This document shows, piece by piece, positions 1,807 through 45,033 of a stretch of 64,000 nucleotides of DNA (position 1 is its first letter; every line of letters begins with the position of its first letter). The stretch comes from Marinobacterium aestuarii (lineage in GTDB: Bacteria; Pseudomonadota; Gammaproteobacteria; Pseudomonadales; Balneatricaceae), in the NCBI RefSeq assembly GCF_001651805.1, contig NZ_CP015839.1:1612001-1676000 (forward strand), in the 5' to 3' direction. The notes under the pieces were generated by a model. The model was given only the letters and a program-made list of their open reading frames with translations, made no database searches and was not told where the DNA came from. Made by a program: the position numbers and the translations under genes.

Positions 1807-3195
1807 TCAGAGGTGCTCTTCGGCGTAGCGTGCCAGGCGGGAGCGGAAGATGCCTTCGAAGTGGACGTTGGCAGAGCCTTCGAACCCCTTGAAGCGTTCA
1901 ACGATATAGGTCAGGCCCGAGGTCAGGGCGGTCAGGTAGTTGGAGTCGATCTGCGCCAGGTTGCCCAGACAGATCATCTTGGTGCCCTTGCCGCAGCGGG
2001 TGATGATGGTCTTGAGCTGCTGCGGTGTCAGGTTCTGGGCTTCGTCGACGATGACCACCGCATCCTGAATGCTGCGACCGCGAATGAAGTTCAGCGACTT
2101 GAACTGGATATTGGCCTTTTCAATGGCGTACTTGACGCTGCTCTGGGGGCGCTCGTCATGCTCGTGCATGGCCTCGAGGTTGTCGTGAATGGAACTGAGC
2201 CAGGGGGTCATTTTCTCCTCTTCGGTGCCGGGCAGGAAGCCGATATCCTCGGCCACTGGCGGCGTGGAACGGGTGACTATAATCTTGTTGAAGCGCTTCT
2301 GCTCGATCACCATTTCCAGCGCGCAGGCCAGCGCAATCAGGGTTTTGCCCGAACCCGCTGCGCCATTGAGCAGGCACATGTCGACCGTTGGGTCCAGCAG
2401 GGACTGCATGGCAAAGGCCTGGTACAGCGTGATGGGGGTGATGCCCCAGCAGTTCTGCTGCATCAGGTGGCTGTAGCCCAAGTCCAGCAGTACCACCTTG
2501 TCGTCCTCAATTGAAATGGTGCGGGCGGCGAAGTCCTTGCTGTCGTCGTAAACGTATTCGTTGGGGTAGGTGTGGGGCAGCATTTCCCGGTTGACACGGT
2601 GATAGGTGCGATCGCCATCGCGGTAGCTGTCAACCTGCTCGATGCGGTCCCAGAAATTGCCCTCTATCTTCTGGTGCCCGGCGGGCAGCAGGTCGAGATC
2701 GGAGATCAGCTGATCGGTGCGGTAGTCTTCAACTTTCAGCAATCCGGCCCCAAGGGCCTTGAGCCGCATGTTGATGTCTTTGGTGACCAGGATGATGTCG
2801 CGGTGTGGGTTGGTCGCCTGCAGGTGCAGGGCGCAGTTGATGATCTGGTTGTCCTTGTTCTTGTCGGCGGGCAGAAAGCCCTGGCGCGCACCCAGTTCGT
2901 GGTCGGGGAAGATGCTCAGTTTGCCCAGCGGGGTTTCTCGATCGATCCCCGGCAACATGATGCGCACGCCCTTGGTGATCTGGGTGGGGCTGTTCGCGGC
3001 GCTGAGAATATTGTCGATCGCCCGGATCGCAAAGCGGGCTTCCTGCGCCACTGTTTTCTTGCGGTCCTTGATGTCATCAAGTTCCTCAAGCACGGTCATG
3101 GGGATGGTGATGTCCTGTTCCTTGAATTCGAACAGGCACTTGGGATCATGCAGCAACACGTTGGTATCGAGAATATAAAGTTTCGATGCGGTCAT
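1807..3195 (-). CDS. PhoH family protein with N-terminal PIN domain (PhoH2/YlaK type)
   Basis: Predicted RNA-acting protein of 462 residues. Residues 1-140 form a PIN nuclease domain (ILDTNVLLHDP at the start with the first catalytic Asp at 10). The C-terminal half is the PhoH ATPase with Walker A GAAGSGKT at 278-285 and a Walker B-like VVIVDEAQN about 100 residues later. PIN-PhoH fusions are known as RNA helicase/ribonuclease proteins, often linked to stress or toxin-antitoxin-like loci. No antitoxin-like small gene lies upstream here: the next 420 bases lead to the divergent ppnN. The ATG has AAGGAAAAG upstream. The biological role in this organism is not shown by the sequence. Confidence 0.9.
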   Translation of the reverse strand: MTASKLYILDTNVLLHDPKCLFEFKEQDITIPMTVLEELDDIKDRKKTVAQEARFAIRAIDNILSAANSPTQITKGVRIMLPGIDRETPLGKLSIFPDHELGARQGFLPADKNKDNQIINCALHLQATNPHRDIILVTKDINMRLKALGAGLLKVEDYRTDQLISDLDLLPAGHQKIEGNFWDRIEQVDSYRDGDRTYHRVNREMLPHTYPNEYVYDDSKDFAARTISIEDDKVVLLDLGYSHLMQQNCWGITPITLYQAFAMQSLLDPTVDMCLLNGAAGSGKTLIALACALEMVIEQKRFNKIIVTRSTPPVAEDIGFLPGTEEEKMTPWLSSIHDNLEAMHEHDERPQSSVKYAIEKANIQFKSLNFIRGRSIQDAVVIVDEAQNLTPQQLKTIITRCGKGTKMICLGNLAQIDSNYLTALTSGLTYIVERFKGFEGSANVHFEGIFRSRLARYAEEHL

Positions 3196-14050: not shown

Positions 14051-14130
14051 TCTTTGCGTTGCAACTTCAGGGTAATCGGCGTAGTGTGCAGGCTCATGAA
14101 TATGTGGCTTTTTCTACCGCAGGCTACTCT

Positions 14131-15306
14131 ATGAGTCCCCCCTGCCACCGGATTCTGCTGGTGGAGTCCGATACTCAACTTATCGATCAAATCTTTGAAC
14201 TTAGTGAGCAGGTCGAGCCTTTTCGTCTGCAGATACTGAGAGCCTCTGATGCGTCGGCGCTCGAAAGCCTGCTGGATCACTATGAGTTTTCGCTGGCTGT
14301 GGTCAATGTCCAGCGGCTGCCGGCGGATCTTGCTCTGCGCGACCTTTGTATCCGTTTGCACCCCAAGCCGGTTGTTGCGCTGGTGCCAGAGCTGGATGCT
14401 TCCTATCTGCTCAGTGGGCTGCGTGCCGGTGCCAGTGACATCTACAGCTACCGTTGCCTGCAGTACGAAGCCCAGGCCTTTGTCGCGACACTCTCTCGCC
14501 TGCTGAGCCGGGCGGCGCAGCTTGAGGCTGCAAACCTCTACCGCGAGAGTCTGGAGCGCAGTCTTGATGAGCTGCGTTCGGACCAGATGGCAGCTCAGCA
14601 GGTGCAGCAGAATTTGCTGCCGGCCAAGCTGCAAACCATCGGTGGCGTCAGTTTTGCCTATGATCTGACGCCGTCCCTGGTGCTGAGTGGTGACTTTGTC
14701 GATGTGGCGCCGCTGGATGATCATCTAACGCTGTTTTATCTGGCTGACGTTTCAGGCCATGGAGCCTCGTCGGCGCTGGTCACTGTGTTGCTCAAGAATA
14801 TGACCAATCGTGTGTTGCGGGCCCACCATCGTGATACGCCCCTGTCTGAGCTGTCGCCTGCCTCTACCCTCTACTTGCTGAACCGCGAGCTGCTTGATAC
14901 CGGCCTTGGCAAGCATTTTACGATCTTTGCCGGGATTCTGGATGCGCGTAATTCAACCCTCAAATACGCCGTGGGGGGGCACCACCCCATGCCGATCCTG
15001 AGTCAGGGAGGGGAGGCACGCTTTCTGTCCGGTCGGGGCATGCCGGTGGGGCTGTTTGACGAGCCGTTTTTTGATGAGCACGAGCTGCATCTGGCCGATA
15101 CATTTTCACTGACTCTGTTCTCGGACGGCGTGCTGGAAGTCATGGTTGGGGAAGGCTCGCTGGAAAAACGTGAGGAGCGGTTGCGCACTCTGGTAGCGGC
15201 GGGTGTAGTGCAGCCTGATGATTTGCTGGACACTGTGCTGGGTACCGCCAGCTGTCCGGATGATATTGCTATTTTGACTTTGTTCCGGGACGCTTCTGAT
15301 GCGTGA
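14131..15306 (+). CDS. rssB: Response regulator with PP2C/SpoIIE phosphatase output (Pseudomonas RssB type)
   Basis: Predicted serine phosphatase that activates an anti-sigma-factor antagonist in a partner-switching pathway. The 391-residue protein has an N-terminal receiver-like domain (1-120), a short coiled coil (about 130-160) and a PP2C domain with the metal-binding DVSGHG signature and a terminal CPDDIAILTLF. The receiver looks degenerate: the strand that should end in the phosphoacceptor Asp reads AVVNVQRLP with no Asp. It overlaps the downstream STAS gene by 8 nt. The order mlaA - PP2C regulator - STAS - tal - dusA recalls P. aeruginosa PA2800-PA2795, which is why I use the RssB name rather than HsbR. 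The ATG at 14131 was preferred to a TTG at 14059. Confidence 0.85.
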   Translation: MSPPCHRILLVESDTQLIDQIFELSEQVEPFRLQILRASDASALESLLDHYEFSLAVVNVQRLPADLALRDLCIRLHPKPVVALVPELDASYLLSGLRAGASDIYSYRCLQYEAQAFVATLSRLLSRAAQLEAANLYRESLERSLDELRSDQMAAQQVQQNLLPAKLQTIGGVSFAYDLTPSLVLSGDFVDVAPLDDHLTLFYLADVSGHGASSALVTVLLKNMTNRVLRAHHRDTPLSELSPASTLYLLNRELLDTGLGKHFTIFAGILDARNSTLKYAVGGHHPMPILSQGGEARFLSGRGMPVGLFDEPFFDEHELHLADTFSLTLFSDGVLEVMVGEGSLEKREERLRTLVAAGVVQPDDLLDTVLGTASCPDDIAILTLFRDASDA

Positions 15307-15784
15307 AGGCTCGATTTTTTTTGCCCGCGAGGGTGATAGTTACGTATTGAAGTTTGTTGGCGAAGTGCGCCTCACGCTCTGTACGACCCTTGATCGCCAC
15401 CTGGAGCAGGTACTGGCCGTTGGGGGTGTTCGGCATATTCTGGTGGATTTGACCGAAACCGATAGCATTGACAGTACGTCGCTGGGGTTGATTGCCAAGC
15501 TGGCGGTGGGGGCGAGTCGTCTGTCTCTGGAGGCGCCGACCCTGGTATCGACCAATGAAGATGTGACGCGCATTCTTTTTACCATGGGTTTTGAGCGCAT
15601 TTTTTTGCTGCTGGATACCATGCCAACCAGTCTGGTCGATCTCAAGCGGCTGCCGTTTGTGCAGGAATCGGAAGCAGCGGTGCGTGATCGTATTATTGAA
15701 GCGCACAAGGTTCTGATGAGTCTGAATGAGTCTAATCGGGATGCCTTTGTTGATCTGGTTTCTACGCTGGAGTGTCACCTCTGA
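15299..15784 (+). CDS. rssC: STAS-domain anti-sigma factor antagonist (RssC/HsbA-like)
   Basis: Substrate of the upstream PP2C phosphatase: when dephosphorylated, such proteins bind an anti-sigma factor and free its partner. The 161-residue protein has a STAS fold at about 1-110, with the phosphorylatable serine region IDSTSLGLIAKLA, and a C-terminal helical extension like that of the pseudomonad RssC and HsbA proteins. The start overlaps the end of the phosphatase gene by 8 nt, so the two are translationally coupled. No anti-sigma kinase gene is in the neighbourhood. The 3' flank carries the candidate CsrA-binding RNA. Confidence 0.88.
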   Translation: MREGSIFFAREGDSYVLKFVGEVRLTLCTTLDRHLEQVLAVGGVRHILVDLTETDSIDSTSLGLIAKLAVGASRLSLEAPTLVSTNEDVTRILFTMGFERIFLLLDTMPTSLVDLKRLPFVQESEAAVRDRIIEAHKVLMSLNESNRDAFVDLVSTLECHL

Positions 15785-15868
15785 CTCAGGGCGGGATTCT
15801 AGCCAGTCGGGCGTGCTTTTAGGAGTTTGTCCTATGGTATCTGCCGGTAAAAGCTCTAGTATTGACTT

Positions 15869-16004
15869 TGTAAGCTGAGGTCACAGGGATAGGGCGCGAC
15901 GAAGGGATACGAACTCAATTACTCACTTCTCAGGGATTTGAGGGGTGACCGGCAAGGATGCTGGGCGAGGGCTTGATGGCAGGATGCCAAAGAGCCCTTT
16001 TTTT
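15869..16004 (+). ncRNA. Candidate CsrA/RsmA-titrating small RNA (CsrB/RsmZ-like)
   Basis: No ORF. Within 136 nt there are five (A)GGA(U) motifs: AGGGAT at 15885 and 15903, AGGGAT at 15932, AGGATG at 15955 and 15981. The last three each lie in the loop of a hairpin, and the hairpins follow one another: TCACTTCTCA-GGGATT-TGAGGGGTGA (15923-15948), CCGGCA-AGGA-TGCTGG (15949-15964), and TGGCA-GGA-TGCCA inside the terminal stem (15969-15997), which ends in seven T. GGA in hairpin loops is the known recognition element for CsrA/RsmA. The 5' end is not fixed: a TAGTAT at 15857-15862 is a poor -10, and only a half GacA box (TGTAAG, 15869) is present. It may instead be a 3'-UTR-derived RNA from rssC. 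Confidence 0.55.
15969..16004 (+). terminator. Intrinsic terminator after rssC / end of candidate sRNA
   Basis: GGGCTT...AGAGCCC outer stem with an inner perfect TGGCA-GGA-TGCCA hairpin, followed by TTTTTTT (15998-16004). Confidence 0.88.
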
Positions 16005-16158
16005 ATGTCTGCTTTTTATATCTGCAGCTTTATTTATCTCTGCTTCAAGCGCTTTGCAATAATCTGATCTGCCCAGTTTTTTAGACTCGCTTGCGCCTCG
16101 AATTTACCGGTTGCCTGATATTTTCAAGTGTCTGGCGCTCGCCCGGCTTTTATCTTTT

Positions 16159-16207
<49 letters not shown>

Positions 16208-16265: not shown

Positions 16266-17219
16266 TCAGAGTGCCAGCAGCAGTTGCTCGAGCTTGATCT
16301 GGTCTGCGGTAAAGTTGCGAATGCCTTCTGCCAGCTTTTCCGTCGCCATGGCGTCTTCGTTCATCTGCCAGCGGTAGTTGCTTTCTGTCAGGCTGGTGTT
16401 GAGTTCCTGGCGGCGGGCGCTCGCGCGGCTCAGGCGTTGCTCCAGTGGTGCCTGGGTGGCGTCCAGTTCCTGCATCAGTGCGGGGCTGATGGTCAGGCGA
16501 TCGCAACCGGCCAAGGCCTGAATTTCGCCAATATTGCGAAAGCTTGCGCCCATGACAACGGTGCCATAGTCGTGCTGCTTGTAGTGGTTGTAAATGCGCG
16601 TTACTGAAACCACGCCAGGATCGCGGTCGCCACCAAAGTCGGCGTCGGGTTGCTGGGCGCGGTGCCAGTCGAGGATGCGGCCGACAAAGGGAGATATCAG
16701 GAAAGCGCCTGCGTCAGCGCAGGCCTGGGCCTGGGCGAAACCAAACAGCAGGGTAAGGTTGCAGTTGATGCCTTCGCGCTCCAGTATCTCGGCGGCGCGG
16801 ATGCCTTCCCAGGTGGAGGCGATCTTGATCAGGATGCGGTCGGTCTTGATGCCGGCCTCCTGATACATGGCCATAAGCTTGCGGGCGCGGGTGACGGTGG
16901 CGTCCGTATTAAAGGACAGGCGGGCATCCACCTCGGTGGAGACACGTCCGGGCACCAGTTTAAGGATTTCCAGCCCGATGAGTACCGCCAGCTTGTCGGT
17001 CATGTTGCCAAGCTGCTGCTGGTTGTCGCCGCCAAGGCTCTGGGCCCAGCTGCGTGCCTGTTCCAGCAGGGGGCGATAGGCCGGGTTCTGGCCGGCCTTG
17101 AGCAGCAGTGAGGGGTTGGTGGTGGCGTCGACGGGTCTGAACTGGCGTATCGCCTCGATATCGCCGGTATCTGCCACAACACTGGTGATGGCTTTCAACT
17201 GTTCCAGCTGGCTTTGCAT
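16266..17219 (-). CDS. tal: Transaldolase
   Basis: Pentose phosphate pathway enzyme that transfers dihydroxyacetone from sedoheptulose 7-phosphate to glyceraldehyde 3-phosphate through a Schiff base. 317 residues, the length of E. coli TalB. The catalytic lysine is Lys132 in [12 protein letters not shown], the same position as in Tal[13 protein letters not shown] near residue 31 is the other family signature. The ATG has AAAGGA upstream. It follows dusA by 26 nt on the same strand, so the two are probably one transcript. Confidence 0.96.
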
Positions 17220-41702: not shown

Positions 41703-41779
41703 GGAGTGGTAGTTCAGTTGGTTAGAATACCTGCCTGTCACGCAGGGGGTCGCGGGTTCGAGTCCCGTCCATTCCGCCA
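41703..41779 (+). tRNA. tRNA-Asp (GTC), copy 1
   Basis: 77 nt cloverleaf with encoded CCA; anticodon GTC. Acceptor stem GGAGTGG with CCATTCC. A CACTTTTCGAAGTG hairpin follows directly, without the U-run seen at the end of the array. Confidence 0.97.
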
Positions 41780-41865
41780 CTTTTCGAAGTGGAAGCTTTA
41801 GAAAAATGTAAGCAGCAAGACTTCGTTTCAAAGTGCTGAAGCGTCGTATTAAAGGCCAGCGTTAT

Positions 41866-41941
41866 GGGCGAATAGCTCAGTTGGGAGAGCGTCTGCCTTA
41901 CAAGCAGAGGGTCGGGGGTTCGAACCCCTCTTCGCCCACCA
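41866..41941 (+). tRNA. tRNA-Val (TAC), copy 1
   Basis: 76 nt, anticodon TAC, acceptor GGGCGAA with TTCGCCC, CCA encoded. Four nucleotides separate it from the next tRNA-Asp. Confidence 0.97.
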
Positions 41942-41945
41942 TAAC

Positions 41946-42022
41946 GGAGTGGTAGTTCAGTTGGTTAGAATACCTGCCTGTCACGCAGGGGGTCGCGGGT
42001 TCGAGTCCCGTCCATTCCGCCA
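41946..42022 (+). tRNA. tRNA-Asp (GTC), copy 2
   Basis: Identical to copy 1; starts exactly 243 bp after it, which defines the tandem repeat unit. Confidence 0.97.
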
Positions 42023-42108
42023 CTTTTCGAAGTGGAAGCTTTAGAAAAATGTAAGCAGCAAGACTTCGTTTCAAAGTGCTGAAGCGTCGTATTAAGGGCC
42101 AGCGTTAT

Positions 42109-42184
42109 GGGCGAATAGCTCAGTTGGGAGAGCGTCTGCCTTACAAGCAGAGGGTCGGGGGTTCGAACCCCTCTTCGCCCACCA
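42109..42184 (+). tRNA. tRNA-Val (TAC), copy 2
   Basis: Identical to copy 1 of tRNA-Val, 243 bp downstream of it. The preceding spacer differs by one base (AAGGGCC instead of AAAGGCC). Confidence 0.97.
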
Positions 42185-42188
42185 TAAC

Positions 42189-42265
42189 GGAGTGGTAGTT
42201 CAGTTGGTTAGAATACCTGCCTGTCACGCAGGGGGTCGCGGGTTCGAGTCCCGTCCATTCCGCCA
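42189..42265 (+). tRNA. tRNA-Asp (GTC), copy 3
   Basis: Same sequence as copies 1 and 2. Unlike them it is followed by CTTGCTTTG and a degenerate tRNA-like stretch instead of the hairpin. Confidence 0.97.
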
Positions 42266-42301
42266 CTTGCTTTGTGCATGTGGATAGTTTGAAAGATAGT
42301 G

Positions 42302-42379
42302 TTGGAGTAGCAGGTTAGAATAGCAGCCTGTCATTTCATCACAGGTGCGGTCGGGGATTCAGTCCCGTCCATTCCGCCA
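42302..42379 (+). pseudogene. Degenerate tRNA-Asp-like sequence 1
   Basis: The segment GGTTAGAATA, CCTGTCA, GTCCCGTCCATTCCGCCA is shared with tRNA-Asp, but the 5' acceptor half no longer pairs with the 3' half. The anticodon arm is enlarged (CCTGT-CATTTCATC-ACAGG, a nine-base loop) and the T-arm reads CGGG-GATTCAGT-CCCG. It is followed by the normal spacer hairpin. Probably a decayed or chimeric tRNA copy inserted as a 114-bp addition to the repeat unit. Confidence 0.7.
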
Positions 42380-42465
42380 CTTTTCGAAGTGGAAGCTTTA
42401 GAAAAATGTAAGCAGCAAGACTTCGTTTCAAAGTGCTGAAGCGTCGTATTAAAGGCCAGCGTTAT

Positions 42466-42541
42466 GGGCGAATAGCTCAGTTGGGAGAGCGTCTGCCTTA
42501 CAAGCAGAGGGTCGGGGGTTCGAACCCCTCTTCGCCCACCA
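42466..42541 (+). tRNA. tRNA-Val (TAC), copy 3
   Basis: Identical to the other copies; anticodon TAC, CCA encoded. Confidence 0.97.
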
Positions 42542-42545
42542 TAAC

Positions 42546-42622
42546 GGAGTGGTAGTTCAGTTGGTTAGAATACCTGCCTGTCACGCAGGGGGTCGCGGGT
42601 TCGAGTCCCGTCCATTCCGCCA
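42546..42622 (+). tRNA. tRNA-Asp (GTC), copy 4
   Basis: Identical to copies 1-3, and like copy 3 it is followed by CTTGCTTTG and the second degenerate tRNA-like stretch. Confidence 0.97.
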
Positions 42623-42658
42623 CTTGCTTTGAGCATGTGGGTAGTTTGAAAGATAGTG

Positions 42659-42736
42659 TTGGGGTAACGGGTTAGAATATCAGCCTGTCATTTCATCACA
42701 GGTGCGGCCGGGGATTCAGTCCTGTCCATACTGCCG
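42659..42736 (+). pseudogene. Degenerate tRNA-Asp-like sequence 2
   Basis: Close relative of the first degenerate copy, with the same enlarged anticodon arm (CCTGT-CATTTCATC-ACAGG) but more changes in the 3' end (CCATACTGCCG instead of CCATTCCGCCA), so the CCA is lost. The flanking spacer has also diverged, which suggests it is the older of the two. Confidence 0.65.
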
Positions 42737-42834
42737 TTTCTAGCGAAGTGGAAATTGTAAAAGACACTCGTGACAAGTGTTGAGAGCAAGACTTTGTTTC
42801 AAAGTGCTGAAACGTCGTATTAAGCCAGCGTTAT

Positions 42835-42910
42835 GGGCGAATAGCTCAGTTGGGAGAGCGTCTGCCTTACAAGCAGAGGGTCGGGGGTTCGAACCCCTCT
42901 TCGCCCACCA
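42835..42910 (+). tRNA. tRNA-Val (TAC), copy 4
   Basis: Identical to the other tRNA-Val copies, although the spacer before it has diverged. Confidence 0.97.
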
Positions 42911-42914
42911 TAAC

Positions 42915-42991
42915 GGAGCGGTAGTTCAGTTGGTTAGAATACCTGCCTGTCACGCAGGGGGTCGCGGGTTCGAGTCCCGTCCGTTCCGCCA
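42915..42991 (+). tRNA. tRNA-Asp (GTC), copy 5
   Basis: Last of the array. It carries the acceptor pair GGAGCGG with CCGTTCC, whereas the four upstream copies have GGAGTGG with CCATTCC: a compensatory change that keeps the stem paired (G-C to A-U). Confidence 0.97.
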
Positions 42992-43154: not shown

Positions 43155-44123
43155 ATGACTCTGCCTCATTTCAATCCTTTTGATTCTGTCGCCGTGCCGG
43201 TTCTACAGCCGTTGCCACTGGAGTTCTATCGCCGTGCTGGCGTCGAGGTCTGGATGTTGCGGCTCGATCAGGTTCATCCGCAGGTCAGCGGCAACAAGTG
43301 GTACAAGTTAAAATACGCGCTGCAGAATCTGATGGAGCGGGGCGAGCGGCGTGTGCTCACTTTTGGCGGAGCCTACTCCAATCATGTGCACGCGCTGGCG
43401 TTTGCAGGCAAGGCTCTGGGTATCGAGACCATTGGCGTGATTCGCGGGGAGCCTGCCTATGCTGCCAATCCGACACTGTCGGATGCCAGGGCCTGGGGCA
43501 TGCAGCTCGAATTCGTGGATCGGGCGACCTACCGAAACAAGCAGGATTCTGCATTTGAGCAGCAGTTGCGCACTCGCCTGGGGGATTTTGGTGTTATTGC
43601 CGAAGGTGGCTTCGGGCCACTGGGGCTGGCGGGGTGTCGCGAAATTTTTGCAGGTCTTGATGGTGTGGCTGGTTTTGATTTGATCTGTGTCGCCGCCGGC
43701 ACCGGGGGGACTATGGCGGGGCTGATTGCGACCAGGCCTGCGTCGAGCCGGCTGCTGGGGTTCTCGGCTCTCAAGGGGGGTGAATTTTTATACGCCGATA
43801 TCGCCGCTTTGCTGCACCAGGCGGGTGAAACTGACCCCGGCGGCTGGGCCCTGCAGCTGGATGCCCATGGCGGCGGTTATGCCCGCACATCGCCATTGCT
43901 GGCGGCATTTATGGCGGTTTTTCAGCACAAGACAGGCGTAGCCCTGGATCCTGTGTATACCGGCAAGATGGTGCTGCGTTTCAATCAGATGGTGGAGCAG
44001 GGCGAGGTTGCCGCGGGCTCCAGGGTGCTGCTAATCCACACCGGTGGTCTGCAGGGGCTTAGAGGAATGGAAAAAACATTGTACGATCAAGGAAGTGCTT
44101 ACCGCGGTGGGCTTCCGCTTTGA
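43155..44123 (+). CDS. 1-aminocyclopropane-1-carboxylate deaminase / D-cysteine desulfhydrase family protein
   Basis: PLP fold type II enzyme, 322 residues. The PLP lysine lies in VSGNKWYKLKYAL, and the family segments LTFGGAYSNHVHALA and CVAAGTGGTMAGLI are intact. Members deaminate ACC or release H2S from D-cysteine; which of the two cannot be told from the motifs visible. The frame is open from 43062, but only the ATG at 43155 (MTLPHFNPFDSV) gives a family-like N-terminus. First gene after the tRNA terminator; nadK follows within 30 nt. Confidence 0.85.
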   Translation: MTLPHFNPFDSVAVPVLQPLPLEFYRRAGVEVWMLRLDQVHPQVSGNKWYKLKYALQNLMERGERRVLTFGGAYSNHVHALAFAGKALGIETIGVIRGEPAYAANPTLSDARAWGMQLEFVDRATYRNKQDSAFEQQLRTRLGDFGVIAEGGFGPLGLAGCREIFAGLDGVAGFDLICVAAGTGGTMAGLIATRPASSRLLGFSALKGGEFLYADIAALLHQAGETDPGGWALQLDAHGGGYARTSPLLAAFMAVFQHKTGVALDPVYTGKMVLRFNQMVEQGEVAAGSRVLLIHTGGLQGLRGMEKTLYDQGSAYRGGLPL

Positions 44124-44151
44124 TCGGTTAGCTTAACAACAGGAAGGTTTG

Positions 44152-45033
44152 ATGGACTATTTTCGCAATGTCGGATTGATCGGGCGCCTTGGCAGCAAGT
44201 CGGTTATTGATACGCTGAAACAGCTGATTCGCTTTCTCAATGACCGCGGGCTCAACACTGTGCTGGATGAGCGCATCTCCGATACGATTCCCGGGCACGG
44301 TCAGCAGACCTGCAAGCAGAAGATGATGGGCGAGATCTGCGATCTGGTGATTGTCGTCGGTGGGGATGGCAGCATGCTGGGGGCAGCCCGGGCGCTGTCA
44401 CCTTCCCATGTGCCGGTGCTGGGCGTGAACCGCGGCAACCTGGGATTTCTGACTGATATATCGCCGGCCGATATCGAGGCCAAGGTCGCCGAAGTGCTGG
44501 AAGGCAAGTACACGGTGGAAAGCCGCTTCCTGCTGGATCTGATCGTCAAGCGCGAAGGTGAGCCCATAGGCGAGGGCACGGCCCTGAACGATATAGTGCT
44601 GCACCCCGGCAAGGCGACGCGCATGATTCAGTTTGAGCTCTTTATTGAGGGGCAGTTTGTCTATACGCAGCGCTCCGATGGTCTAATCGTGGCCACGCCA
44701 ACCGGCTCGACCGCCTATTCACTTTCCGGTGGCGGTCCCATCATGTCGCCCAAGCTGGATGCGCTGGTGCTGGTGCCCATGTTCCCCCATACGCTGTCGA
44801 GTCGTCCGATCGTGGTGGATGGCAACAGCGAGCTCAAGCTGGTGATCAGCGACAACAACAAAACCTATCCCACGGTGTCCTGTGACGGTCAGCTGAGCTT
44901 CAGTCTGGCGCCGGGGGATGTGATCACCATTCACAAAAAGCCGCACAAGCTCAAGTTGCTGCATCCTCTCAATTATGACTTTTACCGTACCTGTCGCGAA
45001 AAGCTCGGGTGGGGGACAAGGCTGGGAGCTTGA
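44152..45033 (+). CDS. nadK: NAD kinase
   Basis: Phosphorylates NAD to NADP. 293 residues, same as E. coli. The GGDGS motif (VVGGDGSMLGAAR) binds the phosphate donor, and the conserved NRGNLGFLTD, ALNDIVLHPG and TPTGSTAYSLSGGGPI segments follow. The frame opens with TTG at 44149, but the ATG at 44152 is better spaced from AGGAAGG. One nucleotide separates its stop from the next gene's GTG, so nadK, the metallophosphatase and the rhomboid gene form an operon. Confidence 0.97.
   Translation: MDYFRNVGLIGRLGSKSVIDTLKQLIRFLNDRGLNTVLDERISDTIPGHGQQTCKQKMMGEICDLVIVVGGDGSMLGAARALSPSHVPVLGVNRGNLGFLTDISPADIEAKVAEVLEGKYTVESRFLLDLIVKREGEPIGEGTALNDIVLHPGKATRMIQFELFIEGQFVYTQRSDGLIVATPTGSTAYSLSGGGPIMSPKLDALVLVPMFPHTLSSRPIVVDGNSELKLVISDNNKTYPTVSCDGQLSFSLAPGDVITIHKKPHKLKLLHPLNYDFYRTCREKLGWGTRLGA

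Follow-up and report, generated by a model that had tools for sequence, protein, structure and literature searches.

The stretch that follows the rssC homologue in this Marinobacterium genome raised the question of whether it forms an RNA gene of its own, able to sequester the regulator CsrA, or only the tail of the rssBC transcript, and of which regulator would control it. The window (the whole stretch of 64,000 nucleotides that was analysed) belongs to a genome of 5.19 Mb in one contig, placed in Gammaproteobacteria and in Oceanospirillaceae by NCBI taxonomy. The locus comprised the following features.

14131-15306, + strand: rssB homologue (PP2C phosphatase, SpoIIE domain); start codon chosen in an open frame that begins at 14059
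15299-15784, + strand: rssC homologue (STAS anti-sigma factor antagonist), overlapping the rssB homologue
15818-15835, + strand: palindromic box TTTAGG-N7-CCTAT, presumed operator, centred some 43 bp upstream of the predicted start
15857-15862, + strand: -10-like hexamer TAGTAT (TAGAAT, TAAACT or TAGACT in relatives)
15868-16004, + strand: CsrA-sponge candidate RNA gene with five A(N)GGA motifs, three 3' hairpins and a T7 end, as judged from folds, covariation and covariance model R1
15887-15889 and 15905-15907, + strand: GGA sites 1 and 2, in the 5' part, invariant in seven of seven genus members
15923-15948, + strand: hairpin 1, loop GGAU, GGA at 15934, three compensatory pairs in the genus
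15949-15964, + strand: hairpin 2, loop AGGA, GGA at 15956, almost invariant in the genus
15967-16004, + strand: hairpin 3 and T7, presumed intrinsic terminator (stem 15967-15999, inner loop GGA at 15982)
16266-17219, - strand: convergent downstream gene, an open frame and a conserved neighbour in other genera

The upstream genes had been taken for a partner-switching pair with rssC, and they were indeed RssB and RssC homologues, with profile scores below the cut-offs. The former gave 253.5 bits with NCBIfam RR_RssB_Pseudo (cut-off 700) and 110.5 bits with Pfam SpoIIE, the latter 186 bits with NCBIfam RssC (cut-off 250) and 30.2 bits with Pfam STAS; the Rss names as used here denote homology, not curated membership. 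The convergent gene is presumably tal (transaldolase). A single look at the rssB leader for local CsrA control showed AGGACTT and no obvious GGA at the ribosome site.

The stretch 15868-16004 had a folding energy of -49.9 kcal/mol, its shuffles averaging -37.3 (z -3.71; none of 200 as stable). Its three-hairpin part alone (15918-16004) reached z -4.56, again with no shuffle out of 200 as stable, and the wider interval 15780-16010 was less striking (z -1.98; 8 of 200 shuffles). The first two hairpins were recovered exactly as initially annotated, while the third, placed at 15969-15997, was present with its GGA but proved two bases longer at each end. The GGA in each of the three hairpin loops and the seven T after the last were also seen in this fold, and both AGGGAT motifs described upstream of the hairpins were present. 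The five A(N)GGA motifs have the first G of their GGA at 15887, 15905, 15934, 15956 and 15982, and three of the five lie in loops of stable hairpins; RNAs of this class carry several such motifs, most of them in hairpin loops. Counting both strands, the window has three places with five A(N)GGA per 137 nt, namely the RNA gene, 44020-44199 (+) and 2986-3177 (-). Since two other places are equally dense, motif density alone is not decisive, and it is the conservation of loops and stems that carries the case for the RNA. Simple scans of 15750-16060 returned no sigma-70 promoter match and no terminator call; the fold displays hairpin 3 followed by T7. Open frames of 20-50 aa overlap the RNA stretch. 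Between the RNA and the convergent gene, positions 16160-16207 hold twelve perfect copies of CCTG, which are absent or different in relatives.

DNA searches recovered the RNA in all seven Marinobacterium genomes searched, near relatives of the window genome being M. sedimentorum, M. profundum, M. rhizophilum and M. nitratireducens. The initial annotation had named a lack of conservation of the GGA loops or stems in relatives as the finding that would speak against it; GGA sites 1-4 were invariant in all seven genomes, the fifth was lost only in M. rhizophilum, and the stems covaried. The RNAalifold consensus of the seven sequences contained 34 pairs, nine of them with both sides changed and pairing kept, and 94.9 % of cells paired in the MAFFT alignment of the genus. 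The covariation score was 0.312; shuffled alignments gave 0.208, none of the 500 reaching the observed value, and slid alignments 0.063-0.115. Further pair types, one of five covariation measures, did not exceed the shuffles (127 of 500). Six of the nine compensatory pairs belonged to a 5' helix that closes around the two upstream GGA sites and three to hairpin 1, which was paired in 96.8 % of cells. Hairpin 2 was paired in 100 %, and hairpins 2 and 3 hardly varied within the genus. The minimum-energy fold of the window sequence itself pairs the 5' part otherwise and lacks the consensus 5' helix. By its covariation, the element is probably a non-coding RNA with conserved secondary structure.

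Upstream of the RNA, the palindrome TAGG-N7-CCTA (15820-15834) was kept in seven of seven genus members, four of which displayed the fuller form TAGGA-N5-TCCTA. Its distance to the -10-like hexamer was constant, the alignment being gapless in all seven. Box, promoter-like hexamer and RNA are directly seen in the sequence. The start of the RNA is predicted at about 15869-15870; the covariation of the 5' helix near 15868 fits an RNA starting there, and the earlier proposal of a start within 15840-15890 agrees with the conserved palindrome and hexamer. A TGTAAG in the 15869-15875 region, inside the RNA, was weighed as a possible canonical GacA box and set aside, being imperfect and not kept in relatives.

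The box was not confined to this locus. Pattern TTTAGGNNNTTNNCCTAT occurred at 24 sites in the seven genus genomes and its reversed control at none. All 24 were read, and 21 preceded GGA-rich RNAs while three preceded apparent protein-coding sequence. Five sites belonged to the RNA behind rssC, seven to a second RNA type and nine to a third type in two forms; for the RNA behind rssC in the other two genus genomes, the box spacer fell outside the pattern. At least four A(N)GGA, counted in 150 nt starting 45 nt after the beginning of the box, followed 20 of the 24 box sites, against 140 of 4792 background windows taken from the same loci, RNAs included. Each of the seven genomes thus has at least three box-marked RNA genes, which apparently form one regulon.

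The second box-marked RNA (L078:1501-1700; G000:C1:4607169, +, G000 being the window genome) carries seven A(N)GGA and was found once per genome in seven of seven genus genomes. A TPP riboswitch lies about 180 nt from it on the opposite strand in L078 and L088. The third (L085:1501-1670; G000:C1:5012761, +) carries five A(N)GGA and in L085 has 5S and 23S rRNA genes close by on the opposite strand. The box also stands before similar protein starts (MLSDKQLL) in two genus genomes (L075:1501 and L094:719).

The order was also screened for a stricter box, ATAGGANNNNNTCCTATA, in 390 genomes, 18 of them sampled from the family and 372 from elsewhere; this stricter form misses the window genome because the boxes of the latter begin with TTTAGG. 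The 18 family genomes yielded 15 sites: at least four A(N)GGA came after 13 of these, none after one, and the remaining one was cut off by a contig end. Outside the family, eight of the 372 genomes gave nine matches, each with at most one A(N)GGA after it. A looser pattern applied to 116 family genomes produced many chance matches according to controls, and only returned loci were read. The textbook GacA/UvrY box TGTAAG-N6-CTTACA had no exact match anywhere in the seven genus genomes, and its presence in 11 of 116 family genomes was about the control level (10 genomes). The family search gave 12 sites of this canonical box; of ten loci inspected, L221, on one strand, was followed by four A(N)GGA and the others by at most two.

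The distribution beyond the genus was explored with a covariance model (R1) built from the seven genus sequences, which is blind to gene neighbours and whose E-values are rough owing to a short calibration. R1 matched 45 of 116 family genomes, representing 11 of 16 genera; under strict filters, 71 of the 116 gave no match. The 13 other-genus loci first returned (L145-L157) all displayed rssB and rssC homologues upstream, and ten of them a tal homologue downstream. TAGGA-N5-TCCTA was located within 120 nt upstream in nine of these loci, the remaining four having a variant of it that differs by one or two bases. Another 38 non-genus matches, in 31 loci, were looked at. Seven of them, in six genomes (G059, G108, G058, G036, G074 twice, G035), had a same-strand rssC homologue upstream, at 54-70 nt for four and at 272, 494 and 1342 nt for the rest; six, in three genomes (G010, G112, G114), had a tal homologue and no rssC in the stretch; and 25 had neither homologue nearby. 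A box-like match lay upstream of 30 of 37 non-genus R1 matches in that check. Linkage to rssC was found in 19 of the 38 non-genus genomes with an R1 match, and the 16 best-scoring non-genus matches were all downstream of rssC. Matches without this linkage are probably sister sponge RNAs.

When 26 rows were aligned to R1, double changes were observed in 29 of 34 pairs, a count that is only supportive because the alignment was fitted to the structure. In this wider model-fitted set, hairpin 2 showed double changes in five of five pairs. A MAFFT alignment of 25 sequences misaligned the third hairpin and was left out of the pair counts. Six other-genus genomes displayed tandem R1 matches, two or three within about 1 kb (L198, L208, L209, L210, L212 and L216), suggesting a possible local duplication of sponge RNA genes. 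In more distant bacteria (28 of 33 loci, L012-L039), the approximately 500 nt after rssC contained no TAGGA-N3..8-TCCTA and never more than four A(N)GGA.

As for the proteins, CsrA was detected above cut-off in seven of seven genus genomes. In each of these, exactly one protein was related to E. coli UvrY at E < 1e-30, with 40-41 % identity; in the window genome it is encoded at G000:C1:2597969-2598628. The best NCBIfam match of this GacA-like regulator was UvrY/SirA/GacA with 176.7 bits, below the cut-off of 280, and no uvrC-like frame was recognised by reading beside its gene. Relatives were present in 104 of 116 family genomes. The recognition helix, examined in 29 proteins from 30 loci, read SPKT[VI]HAHR in 27, SRKTVHAHR in one and SPKTVRAHR in one, unlike the SPKTVNSYR of E. 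coli UvrY. BarA-like kinases were found in all seven genus genomes, the best of the window genome scoring 577.6 bits, below the cut-off of 890.

Could the hairpins have arisen by chance in an intergenic stretch? Two other places in the window equal the RNA in A(N)GGA per 137 nt and Rfam gave nothing above threshold, but invariant GGA sites, compensatory changes and R1 matches beside rssC in other genera make this scarcely conceivable. It is also quite improbable that the RNA is no more than the 3' UTR of rssBC with its terminator, with CsrA binding the GGA hairpins and tuning mRNA stability and with no independent gene. The RNA does come after rssC on the same strand, the gap holding no apparent terminator, and similar 3'-UTR candidates have been predicted in Vibrio fischeri (PMC5568370). 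Against this stand the conserved palindrome and the -10-like hexamer in the gap that follows rssC, the occurrence of the same box before GGA-rich RNAs elsewhere in the same genomes, and the covarying 5' helix near 15868. Judging from these sequence comparisons, 15868-16004 very probably constitutes an independent CsrA sponge gene of the CsrB/RsmX-Y-Z class, with its own promoter activated via the palindrome, and one of at least three box-marked genes per genome.

Such a gene would be switched on by a NarL-type response regulator, most likely the divergent GacA/UvrY-like protein, which in its phosphorylated form would bind TAGG-N7-CCTA near -43 and activate the RNA's own promoter. The GGA loops would then capture CsrA and draw it off mRNAs, so that target mRNAs would be released. 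Transcription of rssBC may also run on into the RNA and add copies, since nothing like a terminator is apparent in the gap after rssC. It appears rather unlikely that some other NarL-type regulator, and not the GacA-like protein, reads the box, so that the sponge RNAs would answer a different signal. In favour of this alternative, the box is unlike the textbook GacA/UvrY repeat and the candidate regulator scores below its family cut-off; yet the GacA-like protein is the sole UvrY relative at E < 1e-30 in each of the seven genomes, it is present in 104 of 116 family genomes, and its recognition helix is common to the family and unlike that of UvrY, as expected had the box changed along with it. 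Returning to control by the GacA-like protein, a family-wide rewiring of the Gac/Csr system may be put forward tentatively and with more doubt than conviction: a divergent GacA-like regulator with a changed helix would read TAGGA-N5-TCCTA, not TGTAAG-N6-CTTACA, and one of its sponge genes would long have been kept directly behind rssBC, so that RpoS-turnover genes and a CsrA sponge would be co-expressed by read-through and also expressed separately. The regulator helix and its presumed box would offer a natural case for how a global regulator changes its DNA site.

Searching Rfam, as had been suggested for this locus, produced no match at the gathering score on the RNA stretch, the best in the clan being rsmX with 18.8 bits against 56 (E 0.23). 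The top sub-threshold row, with 20.9 bits and E 0.091 on the opposite strand, was H19_3, an animal RNA, and was taken as chance. RNAs in eight further box or R1 loci of the family likewise had no match at gathering, and the second and third RNA types, in five genus loci, matched no Csr/Rsm Rfam family at E up to 2. Whole-genome searches of the seven genus genomes with rsmX (RF02144; 150 of at least 737 first-look candidates scored per genome) and PrrB_RsmZ (RF00166) gave sub-threshold matches only (best E 0.00114 and 0.00051, in one genome). Similar matches appeared in 11 and 12 of 14 control genomes, and those of the window genome were at none of its three box-marked RNA sites; they were treated as chance or as a dispersed GGA repeat. 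Owing to the below-threshold scores, the RNA is assigned to a functional class but to no listed Rfam family, so the CsrB/RsmZ-type label of the initial annotation holds for the functional class and not for a family. Its interpretation of the locus is supported.

The RNA resembles RsmX/RsmY/RsmZ of Pseudomonas (Rfam clan CL00106) as a short RNA with several GGA-loop hairpins, a presumed terminator and a predicted upstream repeat, and differs from them in its scores below Rfam thresholds, its other upstream repeat and its position beside rssC. Several genes per genome, as here, are also described for P. brassicacearum, which carries rsmX, rsmY and rsmZ (PMC7911923). CsrB/CsrC of E. coli are CsrA sponges activated via an inverted repeat by a response regulator, as proposed here; but their repeat is of the 18-nt TGTAAG-N6-CTTACA type and lies about 180 nt upstream (PMC4682653), in contrast to 15-nt TAGG-N7-CCTA about 43 nt upstream here, and UvrY of E. 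coli shares only about 40 % identity with the present regulator. The 3'-UTR-derived RsmA-binding RNAs predicted in V. fischeri are likewise GGA-rich RNAs downstream of protein genes (PMC5568370), whereas here a conserved promoter-like box separates gene and RNA.

Azotobacter vinelandii shares rssBC homologues with this genome and also has RsmZ; the excerpted text of PMC12923157 reports no Rsm RNA gene next to rssC, while here the two are adjacent across several genera. According to this excerpt, RssB and RssC promote RpoS degradation in A. vinelandii, where Gac-Rsm controls RpoS stability, and lower RpoS in growing cells of Azotobacter and P. aeruginosa. In P. aeruginosa, the related partner switch HsbR-HsbA ties RpoS to rsmY (PMC6482189). 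If RssBC act on RpoS here by analogy, a sponge RNA kept behind rssBC would physically join the Csr/Gac-Rsm and RpoS circuits, and its long maintenance beside homologues of genes implicated in RpoS turnover makes a Csr-RpoS link directly testable. Literature searches limited to open-licence PMC, which test absence weakly, returned no paper combining Marinobacterium and CsrA; papers with Marinobacterium and GacA were, by title, about other bacteria. The kind of RNA, a CsrA sponge, is known, while this RNA, its upstream box and its fixed place beside rssBC appear not to have been described before. To a specialist, the noteworthy points would be the altered box and the linkage to rssC. Likely Csr sponge RNAs are supplied for a group of marine bacteria at whose tested loci Rfam detects none, and the TAGG-N7-CCTA box allows further ones to be found by plain search.

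Weak R1 matches within the genus (L258, L259 and L260; E 0.008-0.083) were rejected as box-marked RNAs and attributed to a dispersed repeat. The latter, at about 1460-1640 of these loci in two genus genomes, displays the GGA-loop hairpin CCGCCAAGGATGGCGG and may represent a CsrA bait or a REP-like element. Elsewhere in the window, positions 41703-42991 are occupied by a tandem array of nine tRNA genes in which Asp(gtc) and Val(tac) alternate in nearly identical units.
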